From: Nautiliaceae bacterium
Lineage (GTDB): Bacteria > Campylobacterota > Campylobacteria > Campylobacterales > Nautiliaceae
Reading direction: 5' to 3'
Assembly: GCA_027062625.1 (NCBI GenBank)
Contig: JAMOSZ010000031.1
Coordinates: forward strand, 1-42,365
Length of the DNA stretch: 42,365 nucleotides
Shown: positions 2,666 to 42,365 of the stretch, piece by piece
Layout of the letters: every line of letters begins with the position of its first letter
Numbering within the stretch: position 1 is the first letter of the stretch
Notes under the pieces: model-generated
The model's database searches: none
Seen by the model: only the letters and a program-made list of their open reading frames with translations
What the model was told of the DNA's origin: nothing
Translations under genes and position numbers: made by a program

Positions 2666-3484
2666 ATGCATATTTCAATGGCACTACTGGTAAAAAATGA
2701 AATTGATATAATAGAAAAAAATATTCGCTTCCACTCAAAAATGGGAGTTGATAGTTTTGTAATAATGGATAATAATTCAGATGATGGAACTTATGAAAAA
2801 CTAAAAGAGCTTAGTAAAGAGTTTGAAATAACCTTAATTCAAAATAAAGAGCCTTATAAGCAAGCCAAATTTATGACCTACTTAACTAAACTTGCTAAAA
2901 AAAAGTATAATCCAAATTGGGTAATAAATTCAGATGCCGATGAATTTTGGGTAAGTAAGAAAGGATTAAAAAAGAGCTTACAAATAAAAGGGAGCGTCTT
3001 ACAAATTCCAAGGTATAATATGACACTATATAAAAGGCTTAATAACTGGTGGGAGAGTGAATATAAAGTAGTAAATCAAGTTTTGTACAAAGAAGGAGAA
3101 CCAAACATTATCCTTGGAAAAATCGGAAGAAAAGTTATAATCAATCCAAAAGGATACTTAAAAACAAACTCAGGTAACCACAGTGCAGAACACCTGTTTT
3201 TTTGGCAAAAAAAAGAGTTTAGAGAAATTGAGATTTTTCACTATCCAATAAGAAGCTATGAGCAGTTTGAAAAAAATATAAAAAATAGAGTTGCACTTTT
3301 AAAAATTGGAGCAAAAATGGGAAATCATTACAAAATGTGGGCAAGGGCGTATGAGCAAAATTGCTTAAAAGAGGAGTTTGAGAAAATTGTATTTAGCAAA
3401 GAAAAGCTAAAATGTCTTGAAGATGTGAATATAATAAAAAAAGATTCTACAATAAAGGAAATGTTTGAAAAGTTTAAAATATAA
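2666..3484 (+). CDS. Glycosyltransferase family 2-like protein
   Basis: A 272-aa protein with the start of a GT-A fold: 'MALLVKNEIDIIEKNI', then 'VIMDNNSDDGT' and the metal-binding DxD-like 'NSDADEFW' near residue 93. This matches the Glyco_tranf_2_4 type of glycosyltransferase found in lipopolysaccharide and capsule clusters. No membrane segment is evident, so it probably acts at the inner face of the membrane. It sits between the flippase and the phosphoethanolamine transferase genes in the same operon, with AAGGA before ATG, so it probably adds a sugar to the lipooligosaccharide or a surface glycan. The donor sugar cannot be told from the sequence. Confidence 0.8.
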   Translation: MHISMALLVKNEIDIIEKNIRFHSKMGVDSFVIMDNNSDDGTYEKLKELSKEFEITLIQNKEPYKQAKFMTYLTKLAKKKYNPNWVINSDADEFWVSKKGLKKSLQIKGSVLQIPRYNMTLYKRLNNWWESEYKVVNQVLYKEGEPNIILGKIGRKVIINPKGYLKTNSGNHSAEHLFFWQKKEFREIEIFHYPIRSYEQFEKNIKNRVALLKIGAKMGNHYKMWARAYEQNCLKEEFEKIVFSKEKLKCLEDVNIIKKDSTIKEMFEKFKI

Positions 3485-5000
3485 CTTAATAATTGCTACT
3501 CTTTTTACAATTTTACTCTTATTACCGGATTTTATAGGAAATATCTTATGGCAAAATTATTACATAATAACATCTAAAAATACTTTAAAAGAGATTGCAA
3601 TTACCTTTTTTATCTCTTTGCTTATCTCTTTTTCAAATGCAAGAATTTTATTTTTTACTCTTTTCTTTTTATTTGGAGTAATAGAGCTTATTTACTTTGA
3701 TTTTTTTCATTCTTACATTCAACCATATCAAACAGACTTGCTATTTAGTGAACTTGAAGACATTTTAGATTCACTAAAATCAATTGCGACATTTATTGGG
3801 ATTTTGATGGCTTTTGTAATAGCGATAATAGCTTTACTCTCTTACTTTCTAAAAAAACTCCCACTAAAATCATACAAACTCTCAACCATACTTCTTTTAA
3901 CATTAATATTAATTTTTCCATTTTTTGTAAACAAAAAAAAAGTAATCTACATCCCAAACTCAACCCATCTAAGCTATCTTAATACTTTCTTTGCTACAAA
4001 TTTATGGATACTAAATAAATTTAGCAAAAAAATAAAAAAGACTTATAAACCATACATAGTAAAAAAAGAAAGCAATGGAAAAAAAATAGTAATAGTAATA
4101 ATGGGAGAGAGTTTAAATTATAAAAGAATGCATCTATTTGGATGGGATATAAACAACACCCCAAACCTTGACAAACTCGCAAAAAACGATAAAAATTTTA
4201 TCTTCAAAAAAGCGATAAGCAGCGGGATTAATACTCCTGTTAGTGTTGTAAGCTTTTTTAATCTAAAAAGAGAGCCTCAAAATATAAATCTTTTACTCTC
4301 TCAAAAGACAAATCTTTTAAAACTTGCAAAAGAGAACAACTATTCAACCTACTGGCTAAGCCTCCAAGAAGAGGGAACTTCCATCTCAACCCTTTTAAAT
4401 TATGCAGATTACAAAAAAACGCGAAAAGATTTTATTAAAAAGTATGATGAAGTCTTAATTAACGAACTTAAAAAAATCCCAAACAAAAAAACTTTTATTA
4501 TTTTGCATCTAAGGGCAAACCATTCACCTTATGAAGAATATACTCCAAAAAAATTTTACAAATGGGACTTTCACTCAAAAGATTATGCAACCTACAAACG
4601 AAAAAGCTATTATAATGGAGTTTTGTATAATGATTATGTAATTTCAAAAGTGATTGAGTATGTAAAAAGTCATTTTAAAAACTATTCAATCTACTTTACA
4701 TCAGACCACGGGGAGATGCTTGGATTTAAGGATGAAGGGGGAAGGTTTGGACACTCTCAGCTGACATTCGGAGATACTTTTGTGCCATTTTTGTATTATA
4801 GCGATACAAAAAGAGAACTTAATAAAACCTTTTACAATCACTACCAAATTGGTAAAATGATAGCAAAAGACTTAGGATATGAAATAATAAATCCAAATGA
4901 AGATGGAACCTACTTTATAAACGGAGTTAGCATTGATGGAAGCAGTGGATTTATTCAATATAAAATAAACAACTCAAAGTTAATAAAGGAAAATAAGTGA
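3465..5000 (+). CDS. EptA-like phosphoethanolamine transferase, copy 1
   Basis: A membrane sulfatase-fold enzyme (511 aa) that would transfer phosphoethanolamine from phosphatidylethanolamine to lipid A, core sugar or another periplasmic target. About five hydrophobic helices fill residues 5-160; the periplasmic catalytic domain follows. Zinc and active-site residues can be placed by analogy with EptA/MCR: GE at 214-215, candidate nucleophile Thr257 in 'SSGINTPVS', His353 in 'ANHSP', and SDHGE at 413-417. It starts at TTG, with AAAGGA nine bases upstream, inside the end of the glycosyltransferase gene. Codons 382 to about 499 are identical in DNA to the following gene. Its stop overlaps the next start (GTGA). 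Confidence 0.85.
   Translation: MKSLKYNLIIATLFTILLLLPDFIGNILWQNYYIITSKNTLKEIAITFFISLLISFSNARILFFTLFFLFGVIELIYFDFFHSYIQPYQTDLLFSELEDILDSLKSIATFIGILMAFVIAIIALLSYFLKKLPLKSYKLSTILLLTLILIFPFFVNKKKVIYIPNSTHLSYLNTFFATNLWILNKFSKKIKKTYKPYIVKKESNGKKIVIVIMGESLNYKRMHLFGWDINNTPNLDKLAKNDKNFIFKKAISSGINTPVSVVSFFNLKREPQNINLLLSQKTNLLKLAKENNYSTYWLSLQEEGTSISTLLNYADYKKTRKDFIKKYDEVLINELKKIPNKKTFIILHLRANHSPYEEYTPKKFYKWDFHSKDYATYKRKSYYNGVLYNDYVISKVIEYVKSHFKNYSIYFTSDHGEMLGFKDEGGRFGHSQLTFGDTFVPFLYYSDTKRELNKTFYNHYQIGKMIAKDLGYEIINPNEDGTYFINGVSIDGSSGFIQYKINNSKLIKENK
4608..4961 (+). repeat. 354-bp perfect direct repeat, copy 1 (in eptA-like gene 1)
   Basis: Compared block by block with 6134-6487, every base matches (offset 1526). 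The match starts at the codons for YYNGVLYN and ends after GFIQY. It breaks off sharply at both ends (c/t before, a/c after). It encodes the zinc-binding SDHGE segment and the C-terminal part of the catalytic domain. Confidence 0.97.
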
Positions 5001-6562
5001 AAAAAATAGTGCCAAATTTTTTATTTGCAATAATAACAACCCTTCTTTTAATAGTACCAGATTTTATCACTAACCTATTCTTTAATGGATATTACGACTT
5101 TACCTGTTATAGATTTAGTAGAGAATTTTTTGCAACTTTGGCAATTACTTTTCTCCTAAGCTTTACACCAAGATACTTCCTAACAACAATTTTATCTCTT
5201 TTTGTCCTCTTTGCCTTTATAAGCATAGCTCATTTTGGATACTTTCATACTTACTTAATGCCTTATGAAATTGGCATATTAAAAAATAGCGACGATGTAA
5301 AAGATATATTTTTCTCTTTAAGTCAAATTGCACCACTTGTTATTTTACTTTTAATTTTATGGATAGGGATTACTACTTTTATCTACTTTCTTGATAAAAA
5401 GCTAAATCCCCAAAAAGCCCCAAAAATAAGCATTTCGCTCTTTCTTTTTGCTTTAATAATTTATCCATACTTTATTCACAAAAAACCAAATATCTATTTA
5501 GCAAACTTTACCCATTTTAGCTATTTCAATACTCTAAACACACTTTATCTTGCTTTACTTGATAGCTTTAAAAAACACTCTTACCACCACTACAAACCAT
5601 ACATAGTAAAAAAAGAAGGCAATGGGAAAAAAATAGTAATAGTAATAATGGGAGAGAGTTTAAATTATAAAAGAATGCACCTTTTTGGATGGGATGTAAA
5701 CAATACCCCAAACCTTGATAAACTCGCAAAAAACGATAAAAATTTTATCTTCAAACCAGCAATTAGCTGCTCTGTTAGGACAATTTGCTCAGTTACAACC
5801 TTTTTTTATAATAAAAGAGAACCTGATAACATAAACCTACTTTTAAACAATAAAACAAACCTTATGAAACTTGCCGATAAAAATGGATATGATACTTATT
5901 GGCTTAGTATGCAAAGTGATGTTAGCTTAGTCTCAAAAGTAATAAACTTTGCAAAGCATAAAAAGTTTGAATGGGAATTTAAAAGACACTATGATGATGC
6001 ATTAATTAATGAGTTAAAAAAGATCCCTTTTAATAAAAAAACATTTGTAGTCTTACATCTAAAAGCTGTCCACTCTCCTTATAATAAATATGTACCAAAA
6101 AAATTCCAAATATTCAAAGACAAAAGAGGAGCTTATTATAATGGAGTTTTGTATAATGATTATGTAATTTCAAAAGTGATTGAGTATGTAAAAAGTCATT
6201 TTAAAAACTATTCAATCTACTTTACATCAGACCACGGGGAGATGCTTGGATTTAAGGATGAAGGGGGAAGGTTTGGACACTCTCAGCTGACATTCGGAGA
6301 TACTTTTGTGCCATTTTTGTATTATAGCGATACAAAAAGAGAACTTAATAAAACCTTTTACAATCACTACCAAATTGGTAAAATGATAGCAAAAGACTTA
6401 GGATATGAAATAATAAATCCAAATGAAGATGGAACCTACTTTATAAACGGAGTTAGCATTGATGGAAGCAGTGGATTTATTCAATATCAATTCAAAAACT
6501 GCAACAATCCTTTAAAAAATCCAAAAGAGTGCATAAAAATTATAAAAAGGAAGCAATATTGA
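4997..6562 (+). CDS. EptA-like phosphoethanolamine transferase, copy 2
   Basis: A paralogue (521 aa) of the preceding gene with the same layout: helices in about residues 5-160, then a sulfatase-fold domain with GE at 219-220, candidate nucleophile Thr262 and SDHGE at 411-415. The membrane domain and the segment around the nucleophile differ from copy 1 ('SCSVRTICS' against 'SSGINTPVS'), and copy 2 has extra cysteines there, as in many EptA proteins that carry disulphides. From codon 380 onward 354 bp are identical to copy 1, after which the C-termini diverge (this one ends in a Lys/Cys-rich tail). It starts with GTG overlapping the previous stop. The two copies may act on different acceptor sites. 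Confidence 0.85.
   Translation: MKKIVPNFLFAIITTLLLIVPDFITNLFFNGYYDFTCYRFSREFFATLAITFLLSFTPRYFLTTILSLFVLFAFISIAHFGYFHTYLMPYEIGILKNSDDVKDIFFSLSQIAPLVILLLILWIGITTFIYFLDKKLNPQKAPKISISLFLFALIIYPYFIHKKPNIYLANFTHFSYFNTLNTLYLALLDSFKKHSYHHYKPYIVKKEGNGKKIVIVIMGESLNYKRMHLFGWDVNNTPNLDKLAKNDKNFIFKPAISCSVRTICSVTTFFYNKREPDNINLLLNNKTNLMKLADKNGYDTYWLSMQSDVSLVSKVINFAKHKKFEWEFKRHYDDALINELKKIPFNKKTFVVLHLKAVHSPYNKYVPKKFQIFKDKRGAYYNGVLYNDYVISKVIEYVKSHFKNYSIYFTSDHGEMLGFKDEGGRFGHSQLTFGDTFVPFLYYSDTKRELNKTFYNHYQIGKMIAKDLGYEIINPNEDGTYFINGVSIDGSSGFIQYQFKNCNNPLKNPKECIKIIKRKQY
6134..6487 (+). repeat. 354-bp perfect direct repeat, copy 2 (in eptA-like gene 2)
   Basis: The second member of the repeat described at 4608-4961, in the same reading frame and the same position within the protein. 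A shorter, nearly identical stretch lies further upstream in both genes (about 4047-4206 and 5592-5754, encoding 'KKIVIVIMGESLNYK'), separated by clearly diverged sequence. Confidence 0.97.
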
Positions 6563-26644: not shown

Positions 26645-27301
26645 ATGAAAATTGGACATATTAACTATTTAAACCTTTTGCCATTTTATCAATTTTTGAA
26701 AAAAAAAGGGATAAGAGTTTATAGTAGTTATCCAGCTTACATCAATAAATTATTTGAAAAAAAACAAATTGAGGCAGCTTTTATCTCATCAATAAAAGCA
26801 AAAAACAAAAAATGCTTTAATGTTGGAATCGCAGCAAAAAATAGAGTAAAAAGCGTATTAGTATGCCCGGGTCAAGGAGAAGATAAAGAATCCCAAACAT
26901 CAAATATTTTAGCAAAAATCCTAAACCAAGAAGGAAGAGTAGTTATTGGAGATAAAGCATTTAAAGAAAAAGGGTGCAAAGATTTAGCAAAAATTTGGTT
27001 TGAGAAATATAATCTCCCATTTGTTTTTGCACTTTTTTGCGTAAACAAAAATGAAAAAAAATATGAAAAACTTATAAAAGAATTTTTAAAATCAAAACAA
27101 AAAATTCCTTATTACATTTTAAAACCATACCTAAAAAAAACCTCTCTAAGCTATAAAGAAGCAAGAGAATATTTAGAAAAGATAATTTATTATAAATTAT
27201 CTTGGCAGGAGAAAAAAGCTCTTTATAAATTTTGGAAAGAAGCAAAAAAATTAAAAAAGGAAAGCCATGGATTACTCAAAACCAATAGAGATAGGGGATG
27301 A
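26645..27301 (+). CDS. mqnA: Menaquinone biosynthesis protein MqnA (chorismate dehydratase)
   Basis: Family MqnA/MqnD, a periplasmic-binding-protein fold used as an enzyme: it removes water from chorismate to give 3-enolpyruvylbenzoate, the entry to the futalosine route of menaquinone synthesis used by Campylobacterota. The N-terminus 'KIGHINYLNLLPFYQFL' is the family hallmark; 'AAFISSIKAK' and 'SQTSNILAKIL' follow. At 218 aa it is shorter than many homologues (about 270) but similar to Campylobacter-type ones. The end overlaps the next gene by 35 bp. Confidence 0.85.
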   Translation: MKIGHINYLNLLPFYQFLKKKGIRVYSSYPAYINKLFEKKQIEAAFISSIKAKNKKCFNVGIAAKNRVKSVLVCPGQGEDKESQTSNILAKILNQEGRVVIGDKAFKEKGCKDLAKIWFEKYNLPFVFALFCVNKNEKKYEKLIKEFLKSKQKIPYYILKPYLKKTSLSYKEAREYLEKIIYYKLSWQEKKALYKFWKEAKKLKKESHGLLKTNRDRG

Positions 27302-28940
27302 AATTTTTTGGGTTGGGTATGTTATACCAAATGACCCTTTTCAATGTCATGTCTATCTTATAAGAAATAAAGATGAATCAATCTTAATTGACCCAGGAAG
27401 TATGATAACTTTTCCAGTTGTATTAGAAAAAATAACATCTCTTATCAAGCTAAGGGATATTAAATACATAATTATGCACCACCAAGACCCAGACATTGTA
27501 GGATGCTATTCTACTCTTGAAACTCTCTTTCCACAAGGTAAACGATATATTGTAACTCATTGGCGAACAGAAATGCTCTTAAAGCATTATCAGTGGAAAA
27601 CTCCTTTTTATTTAGTAGATAAGCACGATTGGAAGCTAAAAGCAGGAGATAGGGAGCTTGAATTTATTTTTACTCCATATGCTCACTTTGCAGGGGCATT
27701 TTGCACTTACGATAAAAAAAGTGAAATTTTATTTTCAAGCGACTTATTTGGGGGACTTACGAAAGAATTTAAACTCTTTGTTGATGATGTAGATGAATAC
27801 TTTGAAGCTGCAAAACTATTTCACAAACACTACATCCCAACCAATGAAGTATTAAATTTTGCCCTAAGTCAAGTAGAAAAAAAAGACCCTCAAATGATAG
27901 CTCCTCAACACGGCTCAATTATTAAAAAAGAGTTTATAAAACCATTAATTGAAAAATTAAAAAAACTTGATTGCGGACTTTATTTAATGGATACATATGA
28001 GAGTGATTTAAAAACACTAAACGCAATTGATGAAGTTTTAAAAAAATTTTTTCAAGATACAATCTCAGGAAGCAAAATTGAAATAATTTTAAGAAATTTA
28101 TTTAATAACCTAAAAAAAGTCCTTCCAACGATAATAAAAATAGAATTTTGCGGCATATCTCCAATCTCTGGGAAACTCCACTGCTTTGAGTTTAAGAATG
28201 ATACTTTAAAAGAGATAGAAAAAAATAGCATTGATTACTCTTACACTCAAATCCTCACCCAAGATAATGAGCAAGTTGGATATATCTATCTTTGGACAAA
28301 AAGAAAACTCACAAAACATCAAATAAACTTAATAAGAATACTTTTTGATAAAATCTCAATGCCAATTAGCATCTCTTTGCAAAAAGAGCTTATGTTAAAA
28401 GAGCTCGAAGAAGAAAATAAAAACCTCCATCAAAAAGTATTAATAGACCCTCTAACAAAACTTCACAACAGGGAATATTTAGAAAAATATCTCTCCCAAA
28501 AGATTGAAGAAGCAAAAAAATATAGTGTTCCACTTAGCGTAGCAATGGTAGATATAGATTTTTTTAAGAAAATAAACGACACTTATGGACATTTAATAGG
28601 AGATTGCGTATTAAAAGAGATTGCAAATTTGCTAAAAGAGCACTTCCAAAGCGATGATGTTATAAGATATGGGGGAGAAGAGTTTTTGATTGTTATGCCA
28701 TTTACTCCAATAAAAAAAGCGTATGAAAAACTGGAAAATTTTAGAAAAGAAGTAGAGAAAAAAAACTTTTGCAAAGAGAAAAAACTCAATATTACAATAA
28801 GCTGTGGTATTGCTGAGCTAAGTAAAGATGACACTATCCAAACTTTAATAGACAAAGCCGATAAAAAACTTTATGAAGCAAAAAAAACTTCTCGCAATGT
28901 TGTAATTTGTTATAATTTCAATCCATACAACCACACTTAA
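27267..28940 (+). CDS. ODP-type di-iron protein fused to GGDEF diguanylate cyclase
   Basis: A 557-aa probable oxygen/redox sensor that makes cyclic di-GMP. Residues about 5-240 are a metallo-beta-lactamase-fold di-iron domain like that of flavodiiron proteins: 'HHQDPDIVG', 'YAHFAGAF', 'FSSDLFGG', 'APQHGSI'. The final His of the usual HxExDH is Ile here, and there is no flavodoxin domain, so it is unlikely to be an NO/O2 reductase. Residues about 265-385 look GAF-like, then a coiled coil, then the cyclase with GGEEF at 469-473. The product-inhibition RxxD is replaced by FQSD. It starts at ATG behind AAGGAAA, overlapping mqnA. Confidence 0.85.
   Translation: MDYSKPIEIGDEIFWVGYVIPNDPFQCHVYLIRNKDESILIDPGSMITFPVVLEKITSLIKLRDIKYIIMHHQDPDIVGCYSTLETLFPQGKRYIVTHWRTEMLLKHYQWKTPFYLVDKHDWKLKAGDRELEFIFTPYAHFAGAFCTYDKKSEILFSSDLFGGLTKEFKLFVDDVDEYFEAAKLFHKHYIPTNEVLNFALSQVEKKDPQMIAPQHGSIIKKEFIKPLIEKLKKLDCGLYLMDTYESDLKTLNAIDEVLKKFFQDTISGSKIEIILRNLFNNLKKVLPTIIKIEFCGISPISGKLHCFEFKNDTLKEIEKNSIDYSYTQILTQDNEQVGYIYLWTKRKLTKHQINLIRILFDKISMPISISLQKELMLKELEEENKNLHQKVLIDPLTKLHNREYLEKYLSQKIEEAKKYSVPLSVAMVDIDFFKKINDTYGHLIGDCVLKEIANLLKEHFQSDDVIRYGGEEFLIVMPFTPIKKAYEKLENFRKEVEKKNFCKEKKLNITISCGIAELSKDDTIQTLIDKADKKLYEAKKTSRNVVICYNFNPYNHT
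28911..28916 (+). promoter_or_regulatory. Candidate -10 for pckA inside the end of the GGDEF gene
   Basis: TATAAT in 'AATTTGTTATAATTTC', 37 bp before the pckA ATG. It would give pckA its own promoter in spite of the 12-bp gap to the upstream gene. The match lies within coding DNA and may be chance. Confidence 0.3.
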
Positions 28941-30530: not shown

Positions 30531-30739
30531 TGGCTAAAATTTTCATTTTTATTGGGGTAGTCTTTATAATTATTGGTTTATTACTCTACTTTTTTAAAGA
30601 CTTCCCCCTTTTTCATTTACCAGGAGATATCGTGATAAAAAAAGAGAATTTTATCTTTTATTTTCCAATTACCTCATCAATCTTAATAAGCGTTATTTTA
30701 AGTCTTATTTTTTATATTATCTCAAAGATTTTCCAATGA
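30530..30739 (+). CDS. DUF2905-type small membrane protein
   Basis: A 69-aa protein with two hydrophobic helices: 'IFIFIGVVFIIIGLLLYFF' and 'FPITSSILISVILSLIFYII', separated by 'PLFHLPGDIVIKKENFIFYFP'. The 'LPGDI' loop with two flanking helices is typical of DUF2905. Function unknown. It starts on the last base of the pckA stop (TAATG) and its own stop overlaps thpR by 4 bp, so it is embedded in the pckA operon. Confidence 0.8.
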   Translation: MAKIFIFIGVVFIIIGLLLYFFKDFPLFHLPGDIVIKKENFIFYFPITSSILISVILSLIFYIISKIFQ

Positions 30740-31209
30740 GACTTTTTATAGCCTCCCCAATCTCACTTCCAACTTATCAAACCATAAAAGAAGATTTTAA
30801 AGGATGCATAAAAGGAAAATGGGTTGAGGGATGGAATTTACATCTAACTTATAAATTTATAGGTGAAGATGACGCAAAAAAATATCAAAAACCTCTTAAT
30901 CTCTCAAAAGTCGAAATAAAAATAAAAGGGCTTGGGACTTTTAGTGAAAAGGTGCTATTTTTAAAAGTAACAAACGACTTAAAAGAGATAAACGAAAAAA
31001 TCAATAAAGAGTTTAACCTCTCAAATGATAAATCATTTATTCCTCATATTACTCTTTGCAGAATTAAAGAGATAAACAACAAAGAAGAATTCAATCTAAA
31101 ACTCAAAAAATGGGAAAACTTCTCCTTTTCTATCTCTTCTGAAATATACCTCTATGCATCTACTCTCACTAAAAAAGGTCCAATTTATAAAAAAATTTAT
31201 AAATATTAA
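30736..31209 (+). CDS. thpR: RNA 2',3'-cyclic phosphodiesterase (2H family)
   Basis: A LigT/ThpR-like 2H phosphoesterase (157 aa). The two catalytic HxTx motifs are 'LHLTYKFIG' and 'PHITLCRI'. These enzymes open RNA 2',3'-cyclic phosphates to 2'-phosphates and can show 2'-5' ligase activity in vitro. N-terminal 'MRLFIASPI' matches the family. Start overlaps the previous stop (ATGA). It lies 2.5 kb from an RNA ligase gene, though not in the same operon. Confidence 0.87.
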   Translation: MRLFIASPISLPTYQTIKEDFKGCIKGKWVEGWNLHLTYKFIGEDDAKKYQKPLNLSKVEIKIKGLGTFSEKVLFLKVTNDLKEINEKINKEFNLSNDKSFIPHITLCRIKEINNKEEFNLKLKKWENFSFSISSEIYLYASTLTKKGPIYKKIYKY

Positions 31210-31824: not shown

Positions 31825-31831
31825 TCCTCCT
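31814..31831. terminator. Candidate bidirectional terminator between AMMECR1 gene and ilvD
   Basis: AGGAGGA-GTAA-TCCTCCT is a perfect 7-bp stem with a GNRA-type tetraloop (GUAA). It contains the AMMECR1 stop (31822-31824) and most of the ilvD stop (31830-31832). It has no T run. The arrangement is the same as at folE/thiG. Confidence 0.55.
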
Positions 31832-33518
31832 AATCCGCTTTTAAAATCGCTCCGTTACTTGCATTTGTAACAAGTGCTCTATATTGTCTTAGCCATCTGC
31901 CGGGTACATCTTTTTTAATAGGTTTGAACTCTTTTTTTCTCTTTTCAATCTCTTCATCACTTAGTTTTACATTAATTGAGAAATTATCAACATCAATCTC
32001 TATTATATCTCCATCTTTAAGTAGTCCAATCATTCCGCCCTCAGCTGCTTCTGGGCTAATATGCCCGACACTAAGTCCCCTAGTAGCACCTGAGAATCTA
32101 CCATCGGTAATTAAAGCTACTTTATCTCCAAGCCCCATTCCCATTATAAGAGAAGTAGGTGCAAGCATCTCTTGCATTCCAGGACCGCCTTTTGGACCTT
32201 CATATCTAATAACAACAACATCCCCCTCTTTAACTTTTCCGCTTGTAATTCCTTCAATAGCTTCTTGCTGAGAGTTAAAGCATACCGCTTTTCCTGTGAA
32301 TTTTCTGCTTCCAGTAATCCCAGCAGTTTTAATAACGCATCCCTCTTGTGCCAAGTTACCAAACAAAATTGCAAGCCCTCCAACTTCGCTATAAGGATTA
32401 TCAACCGGATGAATTACGCTATAATCCTTAACCTCGGCATCTTTTAGCCTATCGGCTACAACTCCACCCTCAATTACCGGATTATCAAGGTATAAAATTG
32501 TATCGCTTCTTTTACTAATTTCTTTCATCACCGCACTTATTCCACCGGCTCTGTGGATATCTTCCATATGGATAGTTTGAAGTGAAGGTGAAATTTTTGC
32601 AATGTGGGCTGTGTGGCGTGCAATCTCATTAATCTTTGCAAGGTCAAAATCAACCCCAGCTTCTTTTGCAATCGCCATCATATGTAAAACCGTATTTGAA
32701 CTTCCACCCATTGCCATATCAACAACAAAAGCGTTATGAATCGCTTTTTCGTTTATGATGTTTCTTATTCTGTATTGTTCGCTAAGTTTTTCATCTTTTG
32801 CAATTTCACAAATTCTTCTTGCAGCTTTTCTAAGTAACTCTTCTCTCTCAGGCGTAAGTGCTAAAATAGTCCCGTTTCCTTTAAGAGCTATTCCCATAGC
32901 TTCAATTAATGTATTCATACTATTTGCCGTAAACATCCCGCTACAACTTCCACCACCAGGACACGCAAGGCACTCTAACTGATAAAGCTTATCTTCATCA
33001 ATCTCACCCTTTTCAAATTTACCAACCCCCTCAAACACACTCGCTAAATCAATTGGAGTCCCATCTGGCAAATGTCCAGCTCTCATAGGACCACCGGTTA
33101 CAAAGATTGTTGGCACATTTACTCTAAGCGCTCCCATTACCATTCCAGGAGTGATTTTATCGCAGTTTGGAAGGGCAATCATTGCATCAAGTTTATGAGC
33201 ATTCATTACAGTCTCAATTGAGTTTGCAATAATTTCACGGCTAGGCAAGCTATAAAGCATACCATCATGCCCCATTGCAATCCCATCATCAACTCCGATT
33301 GTATTAAATTCAAACGGCACGCACCCGTTTTTTCTAATCTCATCTTTTACAATCTCAGCATACTTATTTAAAAAAAAGTGCCCAGGAATTATCTCAATAA
33401 AACTATTCGCAACCCCAATAAACGGCTTATCAAAATCCTCATCCTTTAACCCACAAGCTCTAAGCAAACTTCTATGCGGTGCCCTGTGCCACCCTTTTTT
33501 AACCTCATCACTTCTCAT
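31830..33518 (-). CDS. ilvD: Dihydroxy-acid dehydratase
   Basis: Fe-S enzyme of valine, leucine, isoleucine and pantothenate synthesis (562 aa). Cluster-binding cysteines are in '[11 protein letters not shown]' and '[16 protein letters not shown]'; '[18 protein letters not shown]'-type sequence ('[14 protein letters not shown]') and '[20 protein letters not shown]' are also conserved. Length is normal. It has AAAAGGA before the ATG and stands alone on its strand. Confidence 0.96.
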
Positions 33519-33615: not shown

Positions 33616-33658
33616 ATCCATTTTACAAACTTCCCAATCCATTTTAAAATCAGTGGGA
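33616..33658 (+). promoter_or_regulatory. Direct repeats and dyad upstream of the RNA ligase promoter
   Basis: ATCCATTTTA occurs at 33616-33625 and again at 33637-33646, exactly 21 bp apart (two helix turns). The second copy lies inside a dyad TCCCA-n4-ATTTTAAAAT-n3-TGGGA (33632-33658). The block ends 8 bp before the -10 element, where an operator would be expected. In such AT-rich DNA a chance origin cannot be excluded. Confidence 0.35.
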
Positions 33659-33666
33659 CATTTTGA

Positions 33667-33672
33667 TATAAT
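33667..33672 (+). promoter_or_regulatory. Candidate -10 for the RNA ligase gene
   Basis: TATAAT in 'ACATTTTGATATAATTTC', the same TTTTGATATAAT form seen upstream of secG. The start codon is 31 bp downstream, with AAGG at 33691-33694. Confidence 0.55.
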
Positions 33673-33702: not shown

Positions 33703-34773
33703 ATGTTTATACTTCCCACAAAAAAAGATGCTGATTTTATAGTATCAAACTCAAAGCAGTTTTTTAGAAAAGATGATAAATTTTTAGATAAAAATATTTC
33801 GATTTATCATTATAAACAGGCTAAATTTGAAGAGTTTGAAAAATTTAAAGATAAAGGCTCTTATGAACTTAGAGGGCTTACATTTGTAGAAGATAAGAGA
33901 TTTTTGGCTTTACATAAATTTTTTGAGCTTAATCAGGCTCCTGGATGGATGGAAGAGGATTTAAAAGATAAAAAAATCATAAAAGCCACAGAAAAGATTG
34001 ATGGGACCTTGCTTCAACCAATTTTAATCAATAATAAAATCTACTTTAAAACAAAACTCTCATTTGATATCTACCAAGCAAAAAAAGCAAACGAAATGCT
34101 TAAAAATCCAAAACTCAAAGAGTATATTCTAAAAAAATTTAGAGAAAATAAAATTCCTATTTTTGAATTTGTATCCCCAAAGACTCAGGTTGTGTTAAAT
34201 TACGATAAAGACGAACTAAACTTAATTCAAGTTAGAGACTTAAAAACAGGAGAGTATGAACTTGATTTTGAAAAAGAGGCAAATGAATATCAAATTAAAA
34301 CTCCAAAAAGATACAATATCTCAAATTTAGATGAGTTTTTAGAGCTTGCTACAAAAGAGAAAGAAAAAGAGGGGTGGATTTTAATATTTGAAGGGATGAA
34401 ATTTGTAAAAATAAAAACAAAAGAGTACCTTAAAAAGCATAAACTTTTAGCAAAAATTCAACCTCACGACATTATAAAATCAATTTTAGAAAAAAGAGAC
34501 AAAGAGTATGAAGAGATGCTAAATAAAAAAAGCGAAAAATATCAATATTTCAAAGAAATTAAAAATCGTTTTTTACAAAAGTATAATTATTTAAAAAGAG
34601 AAGCAAAAAAAGCAATTAAACTTAGCAAAAAAGAACTCAAAAAAAGATATTCATCCCATCCTTACTATGAATTATTTGCATATTGCAAAAACAGAGGACT
34701 TGAAGGATTTGATGAGTGGATAAAGCAACACACTTCAAAGCTCAAAGGAGCTAAGAAGTTTTTGGAGTTATAG
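33703..34773 (+). CDS. T4 Rnl1-like RNA ligase
   Basis: A 356-aa nucleotidyltransferase of the RNA_lig_T4_1 type, which joins 3'-OH and 5'-phosphate RNA ends using ATP. Upstream of the active site are 'YELRGLTF' (Arg57) and 'LHKFFELNQ' (Lys72). Motif I is EKIDGT with the AMP-accepting Lys98, close to the position in T4 Rnl1 (Lys99). 'FEFVSPKTQVVLNY' is motif IIIa, 'EGWILIFEG' motif IV and 'MKFVKIKTKEY' motif V. A lysine-rich helical C-terminal domain (about 245-356) matches the tRNA-recognising part of Rnl1 in size. No kinase/phosphatase partner is adjacent. Such ligases are known mainly from phages, yet no other phage gene is seen here. Confidence 0.83.
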   Translation: MFILPTKKDADFIVSNSKQFFRKDDKFLDKNISIYHYKQAKFEEFEKFKDKGSYELRGLTFVEDKRFLALHKFFELNQAPGWMEEDLKDKKIIKATEKIDGTLLQPILINNKIYFKTKLSFDIYQAKKANEMLKNPKLKEYILKKFRENKIPIFEFVSPKTQVVLNYDKDELNLIQVRDLKTGEYELDFEKEANEYQIKTPKRYNISNLDEFLELATKEKEKEGWILIFEGMKFVKIKTKEYLKKHKLLAKIQPHDIIKSILEKRDKEYEEMLNKKSEKYQYFKEIKNRFLQKYNYLKREAKKAIKLSKKELKKRYSSHPYYELFAYCKNRGLEGFDEWIKQHTSKLKGAKKFLEL

Positions 34774-40885: not shown

Positions 40886-41948
40886 AAAAATCTTTATGGA
40901 CTATCTCCCACAGGAGCTTGAAGAGTTTGGAATAAAACCAAAATTTAGGGTAAAACAGCTTTATAACTGGGTTTATAGAAAATATGTGGACGACTTTGAG
41001 AAGATGAGTAATCTGCCAAAAGATTTAAGAGAAAAATTAAAAGAGGAGTTTATTATAAATCCCCTTGAACTTCTAAATCACGAAGTCTCCAAAGACAAAA
41101 CAGAGAAGTTTTTGTTTAAGTTAAGGGATAATCACACAATTGAAGTGGTGCTTATTAAGATGAAAGACGAGAGGATTGAAAACGGCAAAAAGAAAGAGGC
41201 AAAATATACAGTATGCGTCTCAACCCAAGTTGGATGCAAAGTGGGATGTGCTTTTTGTCTGACTGCAAAAGGGGGGTTTGTTAGGAATTTGAGTGCCGGG
41301 GAGATTGTGGCTCAGGTTTGGTTTATGAAAAAGTTTAAAGGGTTTGACGAGAATAAGGCTTTAAATGTTGTTTATATGGGAATGGGAGAGCCCCTTGATA
41401 ATTATGAAAATTTAGTAAAAGCGATAAAAATAATAGCTCATCCAGATGGCTTAAATATCTCTCCAAAAAGACAGACAATCTCAACATCAGGCATCGCCCC
41501 GAAAATAAAACGCTTAGGAGAAGAGAATCTTGGGGTAAATCTGGCTATCTCTTTACACGCGGTTGATGATAAGCTAAGAGAAGAGTTAATCCCTATGAAC
41601 AAAGCCTATAACATAAAAAGCGTAATTGATGCGGTTAGGGAGTTTCCAATTGATAAAAGAAAAAAGGTAATGTTTGAATATCTTGTGATAAAAGATGTAA
41701 ACGATGATTTGGAGAGTGCCAAAAAGCTGGTAAAACTTTTAAATGGCATCCCAAGCAAAGTAAACCTTATTTATTTTAACCCATATCCAGGGAGTCCTTA
41801 CAAACGCCCAGATGAAGAGACTATGAAAAAATTTCAAAGATACCTTCTTGATAAAGGGATAACCTGCACAATAAGAGAATCAAAAGGAATTGATATAAGT
41901 GCAGCTTGCGGACAACTAAGGGAAAAAAAGCTTAAAAATGAAACCTAA
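40878..41948 (+). CDS. rlmN: Dual-specificity 23S rRNA/tRNA adenine C2-methyltransferase RlmN
   Basis: Radical-SAM enzyme (356 aa) that methylates A2503 of 23S rRNA and A37 of some tRNAs. The cluster motif is '[15 protein letters not shown]' (CxxxCxxC), with '[13 protein letters not shown]', '[14 protein letters not shown]', '[18 protein letters not shown]' and the C-terminal catalytic Cys in 'SAACGQL'. Length is normal. AAGGA precedes ATG. Close to rnj and rsmA, a grouping also seen in Campylobacter. Overlaps hsdS by 11 bp. Confidence 0.97.
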
Positions 41949-42365
41949 GCTTAGATTCAAGGAGTTTAGTGGGGAGTGGATAGAAAAGAGGCTTGGGGAG
42001 GTTGCAGTTTGTGAAGATAATAAAAGAATTCCATTAAATGAGACTGAAAGAAAACAACGAAAAGGAATATATCCTTATTGGGGTTCAACAAAAGTTATGG
42101 ATTATGTGAATGATTATATTTTTAATGGTGAATATGTTTTATTATCAGAAGATGGAGGATATTTTTATGATTATAAAGAAAAACCAATTGCTTTTTATGT
42201 AAATGGAAAATTTTGGGCGAATAATCATATACATGTTTTAAAAATAAATAAAAGAAATAGTGCGAAATTTATATATTATACATTAGCTCACAAGAATATA
42301 TTAGCTTACATAATTGGAGGAACAAGAACAAAATTAAATCAAAAAGATATGTTAAAAATAAAAAT
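41938..42365 (+). CDS. hsdS: Type I restriction-modification specificity subunit HsdS (3' end outside window)
   Basis: An open frame running to the window edge and therefore absent from the ORF track. It starts with ATG at 41938, eleven bases before the rlmN stop ends, and reads '[22 protein letters not shown]', then '[32 protein letters not shown]' and '[11 protein letters not shown]', closing with '[17 protein letters not shown]'. These are the typical first target-recognition domain and start of the spacer helix of HsdS, the subunit that picks the DNA target. 142 codons are visible of an expected 380-450. hsdM is not upstream, so it must be downstream, elsewhere or missing. Confidence 0.92.

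Follow-up and report, generated by a model that had tools for sequence, protein, structure and literature searches.

A divergent Rnl1-type RNA ligase resident in Nautiliaceae chromosomes, with a probable role in sealing 5'-phosphate/3'-hydroxyl RNA ends

An open reading frame resembling the RNA ligase 1 of phage T4, lying in a bacterial chromosome, raises the question of whether it is a genuine member of that family, how it came to its place and what it would seal there. The locus was analysed within a window, which is the whole stretch of 42,365 nucleotides of a Nautiliaceae contig; the genome is a MAG of 1.48 Mb in 113 contigs and is 99.9% complete. The ORF was located at 33703-34773 on the forward strand, exactly where the first-pass annotation had placed it, with ATG at 33703, TAG at 34771-34773 and a product of 356 amino acids. 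Its divergent neighbour on the reverse strand is ilvD (31830-33518), recognised as IlvD by reading of its sequence. A promoter of its own had also been proposed for the ligase, and a promoter-like TTTAAA-N18-TATAAT sequence matching the consensus at 10 of 12 positions is indeed present at 33643-33672 on the forward strand; it is a weak candidate, since AT-rich DNA of this kind yields many hits of that quality (16 found against 7.5 +/- 3.4 expected). The G+C content of the gene is 27% against a window mean of 32%, and its third-position G+C of 23% equals the value of its neighbours.

The family assignment of the ORF was examined by several searches. T4 Rnl1 (2c5u) matched the window ligase with an E-value of 4e-19 in phmmer, PHROG 562 (RNA ligase) with 3.2e-47 and TIGR02308 with 3.8e-22. 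The TIGR02308 score of 78.9 bits lies under the equivalog cut-off of 242 bits; on comparison proteins the same model gave 634 bits for RB55 of the T4 group and 62-123 bits for other phage and plasmid ligases. An independent HMM trained on 17 Rnl1 proteins, all of them from phages or plasmids, scored the window ligase at 227 bits, while 200 shuffles reached at most 6.3 bits. The similarity to Rnl1 proteins was significant over the full length, and these searches bear out the earlier naming of the ORF as a T4 Rnl1-type RNA ligase. The check that had been suggested for it, a search with PF09511 (RNA_lig_T4_1; gathering cut-off 28.3 bits), turned out otherwise and gave no match to the window ligase. 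The model also failed on the one other Nautiliaceae ligase scanned (L014), and six of six phage and plasmid control ligases passed with 50-89 bits. An effect of the bias filter found no support when tried on the 17-protein profile, which detected all 15 Nautiliaceae ligases with the filter on or off. Because the homology is clear by other routes, the miss reflects a limit of the model and is not a refutation; the ORF is a real, divergent Rnl1-type RNA ligase.

The residues known from mutagenesis to matter for the function of T4 Rnl1 were compared by alignment. T4 Arg54, Lys75, Phe77, Lys99, Asp101 and Gly102 correspond to Arg57, Lys72, Phe74, Lys98, Asp100 and Gly101 of the window ligase, and T4 Lys119, Glu159, Glu227, Gly228, Lys240 and Lys242 to Lys118, Glu155, Glu223, Gly224, Lys236 and Lys238. 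Within the nucleotidyltransferase domain (about residues 1-245, forward strand), the two upstream positions are encoded at 33871-33873 (Arg57, in ELRG) and 33916-33918 (Lys72, in HKFF), followed by motif I, Lys98-Ile-Asp-Gly, at 33994-34005 (in EKIDGT), where the KxDG pattern is present. Glu155 represents motif III; motif IV (Glu223-Gly224, 34369-34374) and motif V (Lys236-x-Lys238, 34408-34416) align with T4 Rnl1, all on the forward strand. Arg57, Lys72, Lys98, Asp100 and Gly101 are invariant in 15 orthologues. The nucleotidyltransferase motifs, the upstream arginine and lysine and the active lysine at 98 named in the first-pass annotation were thus all found again, and Lys98 is predicted from this alignment to be the nucleophile that accepts AMP.

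The structure of the ligase was modelled with AlphaFold2, the model being used for fold identity only (mean pLDDT 79, pTM 0.62, alignment of 10 sequences, weak stretches at 71-82 and 159-168). The top Foldseek matches to it were three T4 Rnl1 structures, with E-values of 3e-17 to 1.3e-16 over about 380 columns and a TM-score of 0.5. The model shows the last 110 residues as helical (helices 240-355), and the corresponding domain spans about residues 246-356 (34438-34770, forward strand). PF20819 of Pfam does not match this domain. Profile comparison related it to the C-terminal domains of the huge-phage ligases with 93.5% probability and to a joint profile of huge-phage and T4-group ligases with 95.6% probability and a pairwise E-value of 1.3e-8, whereas the T4-group profile alone gave a weak 18.8%; the E-values are those of single comparisons. 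The domain is by this comparison homologous to that of Rnl1, which supports the earlier suggestion of an Rnl1-like helical C-terminal domain. Fold and catalytic residues establish the membership in Rnl1, and the assignment as an Rnl1-type ATP-dependent 5'-3' RNA ligase draws together PHROG, NCBIfam, phmmer, Foldseek, alignment, profile comparison and our own HMM.

The distribution of the gene and its surroundings were then considered. The ligase is present in 15 of 21 Nautiliaceae genomes, covering four of five genera, and in a phylum-wide draw it was found in eight of nine high-quality Nautiliaceae and was absent from all of about 388 other Campylobacterota genomes searched. The same ABC-transporter gene adjoins it tail-to-tail in 14 of 14 relatives, with ilvD on the opposite flank in 13 of them; in the window the ABC gene is not adjacent. 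Three relatives without the ligase (G010, G012, G016) show a clean empty site where the ABC gene and ilvD directly adjoin, which indicates that the ligase is dispensable. Closely related ligases, compared in pairs, have a dN/dS of 0.03-0.18; for several of these pairs the synonymous sites approach saturation. The ligase tree follows the genera for the most part (exceptions G015 and G002), and the IlvD and ABC trees lack the resolution that a strict test of congruence would need. The gene was probably inherited vertically with some losses.

The relatives' neighbourhoods revealed no conserved operon partner that would point to a substrate. In G003, G004 and G019 the ligase is immediately preceded by two uncharacterised genes, one for a coiled-coil protein and one for a protein with weak resemblance to cNMP-binding proteins, and the coiled-coil gene is also upstream in G001; the pair is seen in relatives at L017 2839-4025, L018 and L026. 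In G006, G017 and G018 the coiled-coil gene stands elsewhere than next to the ligase, and G007, in which the ligase was not detected, gave a weak match to it; an obligate operon partnership is ruled out by this occurrence apart.

A gene of this kind could also be phage or mobile-element cargo brought recently into the chromosome. The best matches outside the family are phages, and in G018 an integrase gene lies beyond the ABC gene. A 'phage-associated RNA ligase' has moreover been named in Nautilia sp. PV-1 (PMC10092268); the name probably concerns the Nautiliaceae ligase gene, since the integrase stands across the ABC gene in G018, which is guessed to be PV-1. The integrase of G018, however, is outside the ABC-ligase-ilvD block and no phage genes were found at the ligase locus. 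The shared position in 14 relatives from four genera, the broadly genus-wise tree and the low dN/dS also oppose a recent arrival, which is very improbable and already largely refuted by synteny. The ligase is a resident chromosomal gene and not phage cargo, and the earlier description of a non-phage context gains weight from the conserved synteny, from purifying selection and from the presence of the gene across the family.

The older origin of the gene was approached through its nearest relatives. The best matches outside the Nautiliaceae were ligases of huge uncultured phages (32-35% identity), followed by those of Fletchervirus and T4-like phages. A tree of 25 proteins placed the Nautiliaceae in one clade (support 100/100) with the huge-phage ligases as sister group (93/89), on long branches. 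With huge phages holding the nearest relatives found, the gene was likely captured long ago from a phage by the Nautiliaceae ancestor, which is the simplest reading of the tree. Another donor is possible, because bacterial chromosomes outside the phylum are poorly sampled. An IMG/VR scan with the Nautiliaceae alignment gave no match, and a scan of GTDB contigs gave matches in Nautiliaceae MAGs only, which is due to the family-specific search patterns.

The enzymes with which the ligase could cooperate were searched for family by family. RtcB was found in none of the 21 Nautiliaceae genomes, and nothing in the window genome exceeded the cut-off for Rnl2 (PF09414). The suggestion to look for Pnkp elsewhere in the genome returned no HAD_PNKP match; the positive control of this search was weak (one of 14 control genomes, below cut-off), and a divergent healing enzyme could escape it in a MAG of this fragmentation. 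AAA_33 gave five matches in the window genome, read by eye as the housekeeping P-loop enzymes adenylate kinase, guanylate kinase, shikimate kinase, MiaA and Ffh, and was set aside as too broad for a kinase test. A LigT-type 2',3'-cyclic phosphodiesterase gene at 30736-31209, seen also in several relatives' neighbourhoods, was rejected as a substitute for Pnkp and shares no operon with the ligase. No match in the window genome was obtained for PrrC/RloC-like AAA_13 (PF13166) or for a PIN toxin, and PADLOC returned no match for the ligase. Neither a Pnkp partner, under the weak PNKP control, nor an anticodon nuclease was recognised in the window genome, and with RtcB, Rnl2, HAD-PNKP, AAA_13 and PIN all unmatched the T4-style PrrC-Pnkp-Rnl1 cycle is therefore not recognisably encoded. 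A type I restriction specificity subunit (PF01420, E 2.6e-16) was observed about 7 kb from the ligase at 41938-42363, cut by the contig end, in this genome that has no PrrC-like AAA_13 match.

The search for partners bears on a reading in which the ligase mends tRNAs whose anticodon loops have been cleaved, whether by an anticodon nuclease or by a PIN-type toxin, and so gives standing immunity against host or rival toxins. PIN RNases leave 5'-phosphate and 3'-hydroxyl ends, and 13 of the 21 Nautiliaceae genomes carry PIN genes. The ligase-bearing G015 carries an RloC-like protein (L075 1474-3705) with a full-length AAA_13 and a CPFC zinc-hook-like motif. T4 Rnl1 gives the precedent, repairing cut tRNA anticodon loops together with Pnkp (PMC3400036). 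The window genome and G017, however, have the ligase and no PIN match, the window genome being also without AAA_13, and PIN genes are present in the ligase-less G012 and G016, so there is no simple pairing of PIN with the ligase. A pairing of PrrC/RloC or PIN toxins with the ligase was hence dropped, with no match in its own genome and no simple co-occurrence. Anticodon-loop repair in this form is a tentative reading, although a role in tRNA repair is in itself plausible by analogy with T4 (PMC3400036, PMC11494293).

The preferred reading is that of a functional, chromosomally fixed 5'-3' ligase of the Rnl1 type, captured from phage and inherited vertically, which seals 5'-phosphate/3'-hydroxyl RNA without end-healing; this is considered probable. 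T4 Rnl1 requires 5'-phosphate and 3'-hydroxyl ends (PMC11494293), and we infer ligation activity and this end chemistry for the window ligase. ATP would charge Lys98 with AMP, as in T4 Rnl1, the AMP would move from Lys98 to the RNA 5'-phosphate, and the 3'-hydroxyl would attack the adenylated 5'-phosphate so that the strand is sealed. The substrates would be RNAs cut to such ends, as by metal-dependent RNases, and breaks of this type are the most likely ones, given that the genome yielded neither an end-healing enzyme nor a second RNA ligase. The leading candidate is nicked structured RNA such as tRNA, the choice of tRNA being a guess.

The ligase could instead serve RNA processing, for example by circularising or splicing a cellular RNA after RNase III or RNase P has cut it. 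PMC9014305 describes an archaeal Rnl that circularises box C/D RNA, and the strong purifying selection on a ligase without a toxin partner would fit such a use; the clean losses in relatives speak against an essential step. Resealing of 23S intervening sequences was not supported in a limited test: two 23S copies of G001 cover 1-2925 within about 2.9 kb and carry no insert, and matches in the remaining genomes were incomplete or absent. A processing role is on balance unlikely. The boldest reading is stand-alone cellular RNA sealing, where one captured phage Rnl1 without healing enzymes carries out resident RNA repair or processing in vent thermophiles via 5'-phosphate/3'-hydroxyl breaks, which is possible but less likely than not.

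Most attention to Rnl1 concerns phages, and a chromosomal Rnl1 that is spread through a bacterial family and kept under selection, in the absence of RtcB and of a detectable Pnkp, offers a clean setting to probe a cellular use. The Nautiliaceae are moderate thermophiles, so the enzyme may be a usefully heat-stable single-strand RNA ligase. Since PF09511 misses the window ligase, relatives annotated through that model alone would be overlooked. Two further features of the window were observed: at 27267-28940 an ODP-type metallo-beta-lactamase domain is fused to a GGDEF diguanylate cyclase domain, and at 3465-5000 and 4997-6562 lie tandem membrane proteins resembling sulfatase-fold transferases, whose C-terminal halves are nearly identical, read as recent duplication or gene conversion.

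The ligase was finally compared with known systems. T4 Rnl1 (gp63, rnlA; PDB 2c5u, 5tt6, 9do4) shares the whole-length fold, the motif order, all compared catalytic residues and the C-terminal helical domain, with 27% identity in the catalytic domain and 15% in the C-terminal domain. In contrast to it, the window ligase is chromosomal and family-wide, falls below the TIGR02308 equivalog cut-off, is missed by PF09511 and PF20819 and has no Pnkp found in its genome (weak control); nothing here corresponds to the part that gp63 plays in tail-fibre attachment. The huge uncultured phage ligases (LR756504, LR756502, LR745206) are the nearest relatives found, with 32-35% identity in the catalytic domain and a matching C-terminal end; they are carried by phage genomes of 630-640 kb, and LR756504 is matched by PF09511, unlike the window ligase. 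The Campylobacter Fletchervirus ligase (CPX and relatives) is likewise of Rnl1 type, from phages of another Campylobacterota host, with about 30% identity; its long branch outside the clade of Nautiliaceae and huge phages indicates that Fletchervirus was not a recent donor.

Among bacterial enzymes, RtcB, Rnl2/DraRnl and Pnkp-Rnl-Hen1 likewise seal RNA but belong to other protein families with other partners, and the RtcB and PF09414 families of bacterial RNA repair were not found in the window genome. The Rnl1-like ligase of a Rhizobium plasmid is also bacterial and apparently non-phage, with about 21% identity; it is near RtcB, whereas the Nautiliaceae are without RtcB. On that plasmid (L087) the ligase lies between sarcosine oxidase genes and a cluster of rtcR, an RNA-binding protein and RtcB, possibly a mixed RNA-repair locus. 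The Rnl1 copies of Bacillus and Vagococcus plasmids sit among phage-like genes. The Nautiliaceae are thus not alone in having an Rnl1-like ligase on a bacterial replicon, and the comparison gives good support to the view of the Nautiliaceae ligase as a known kind of enzyme in an unusual genomic setting.
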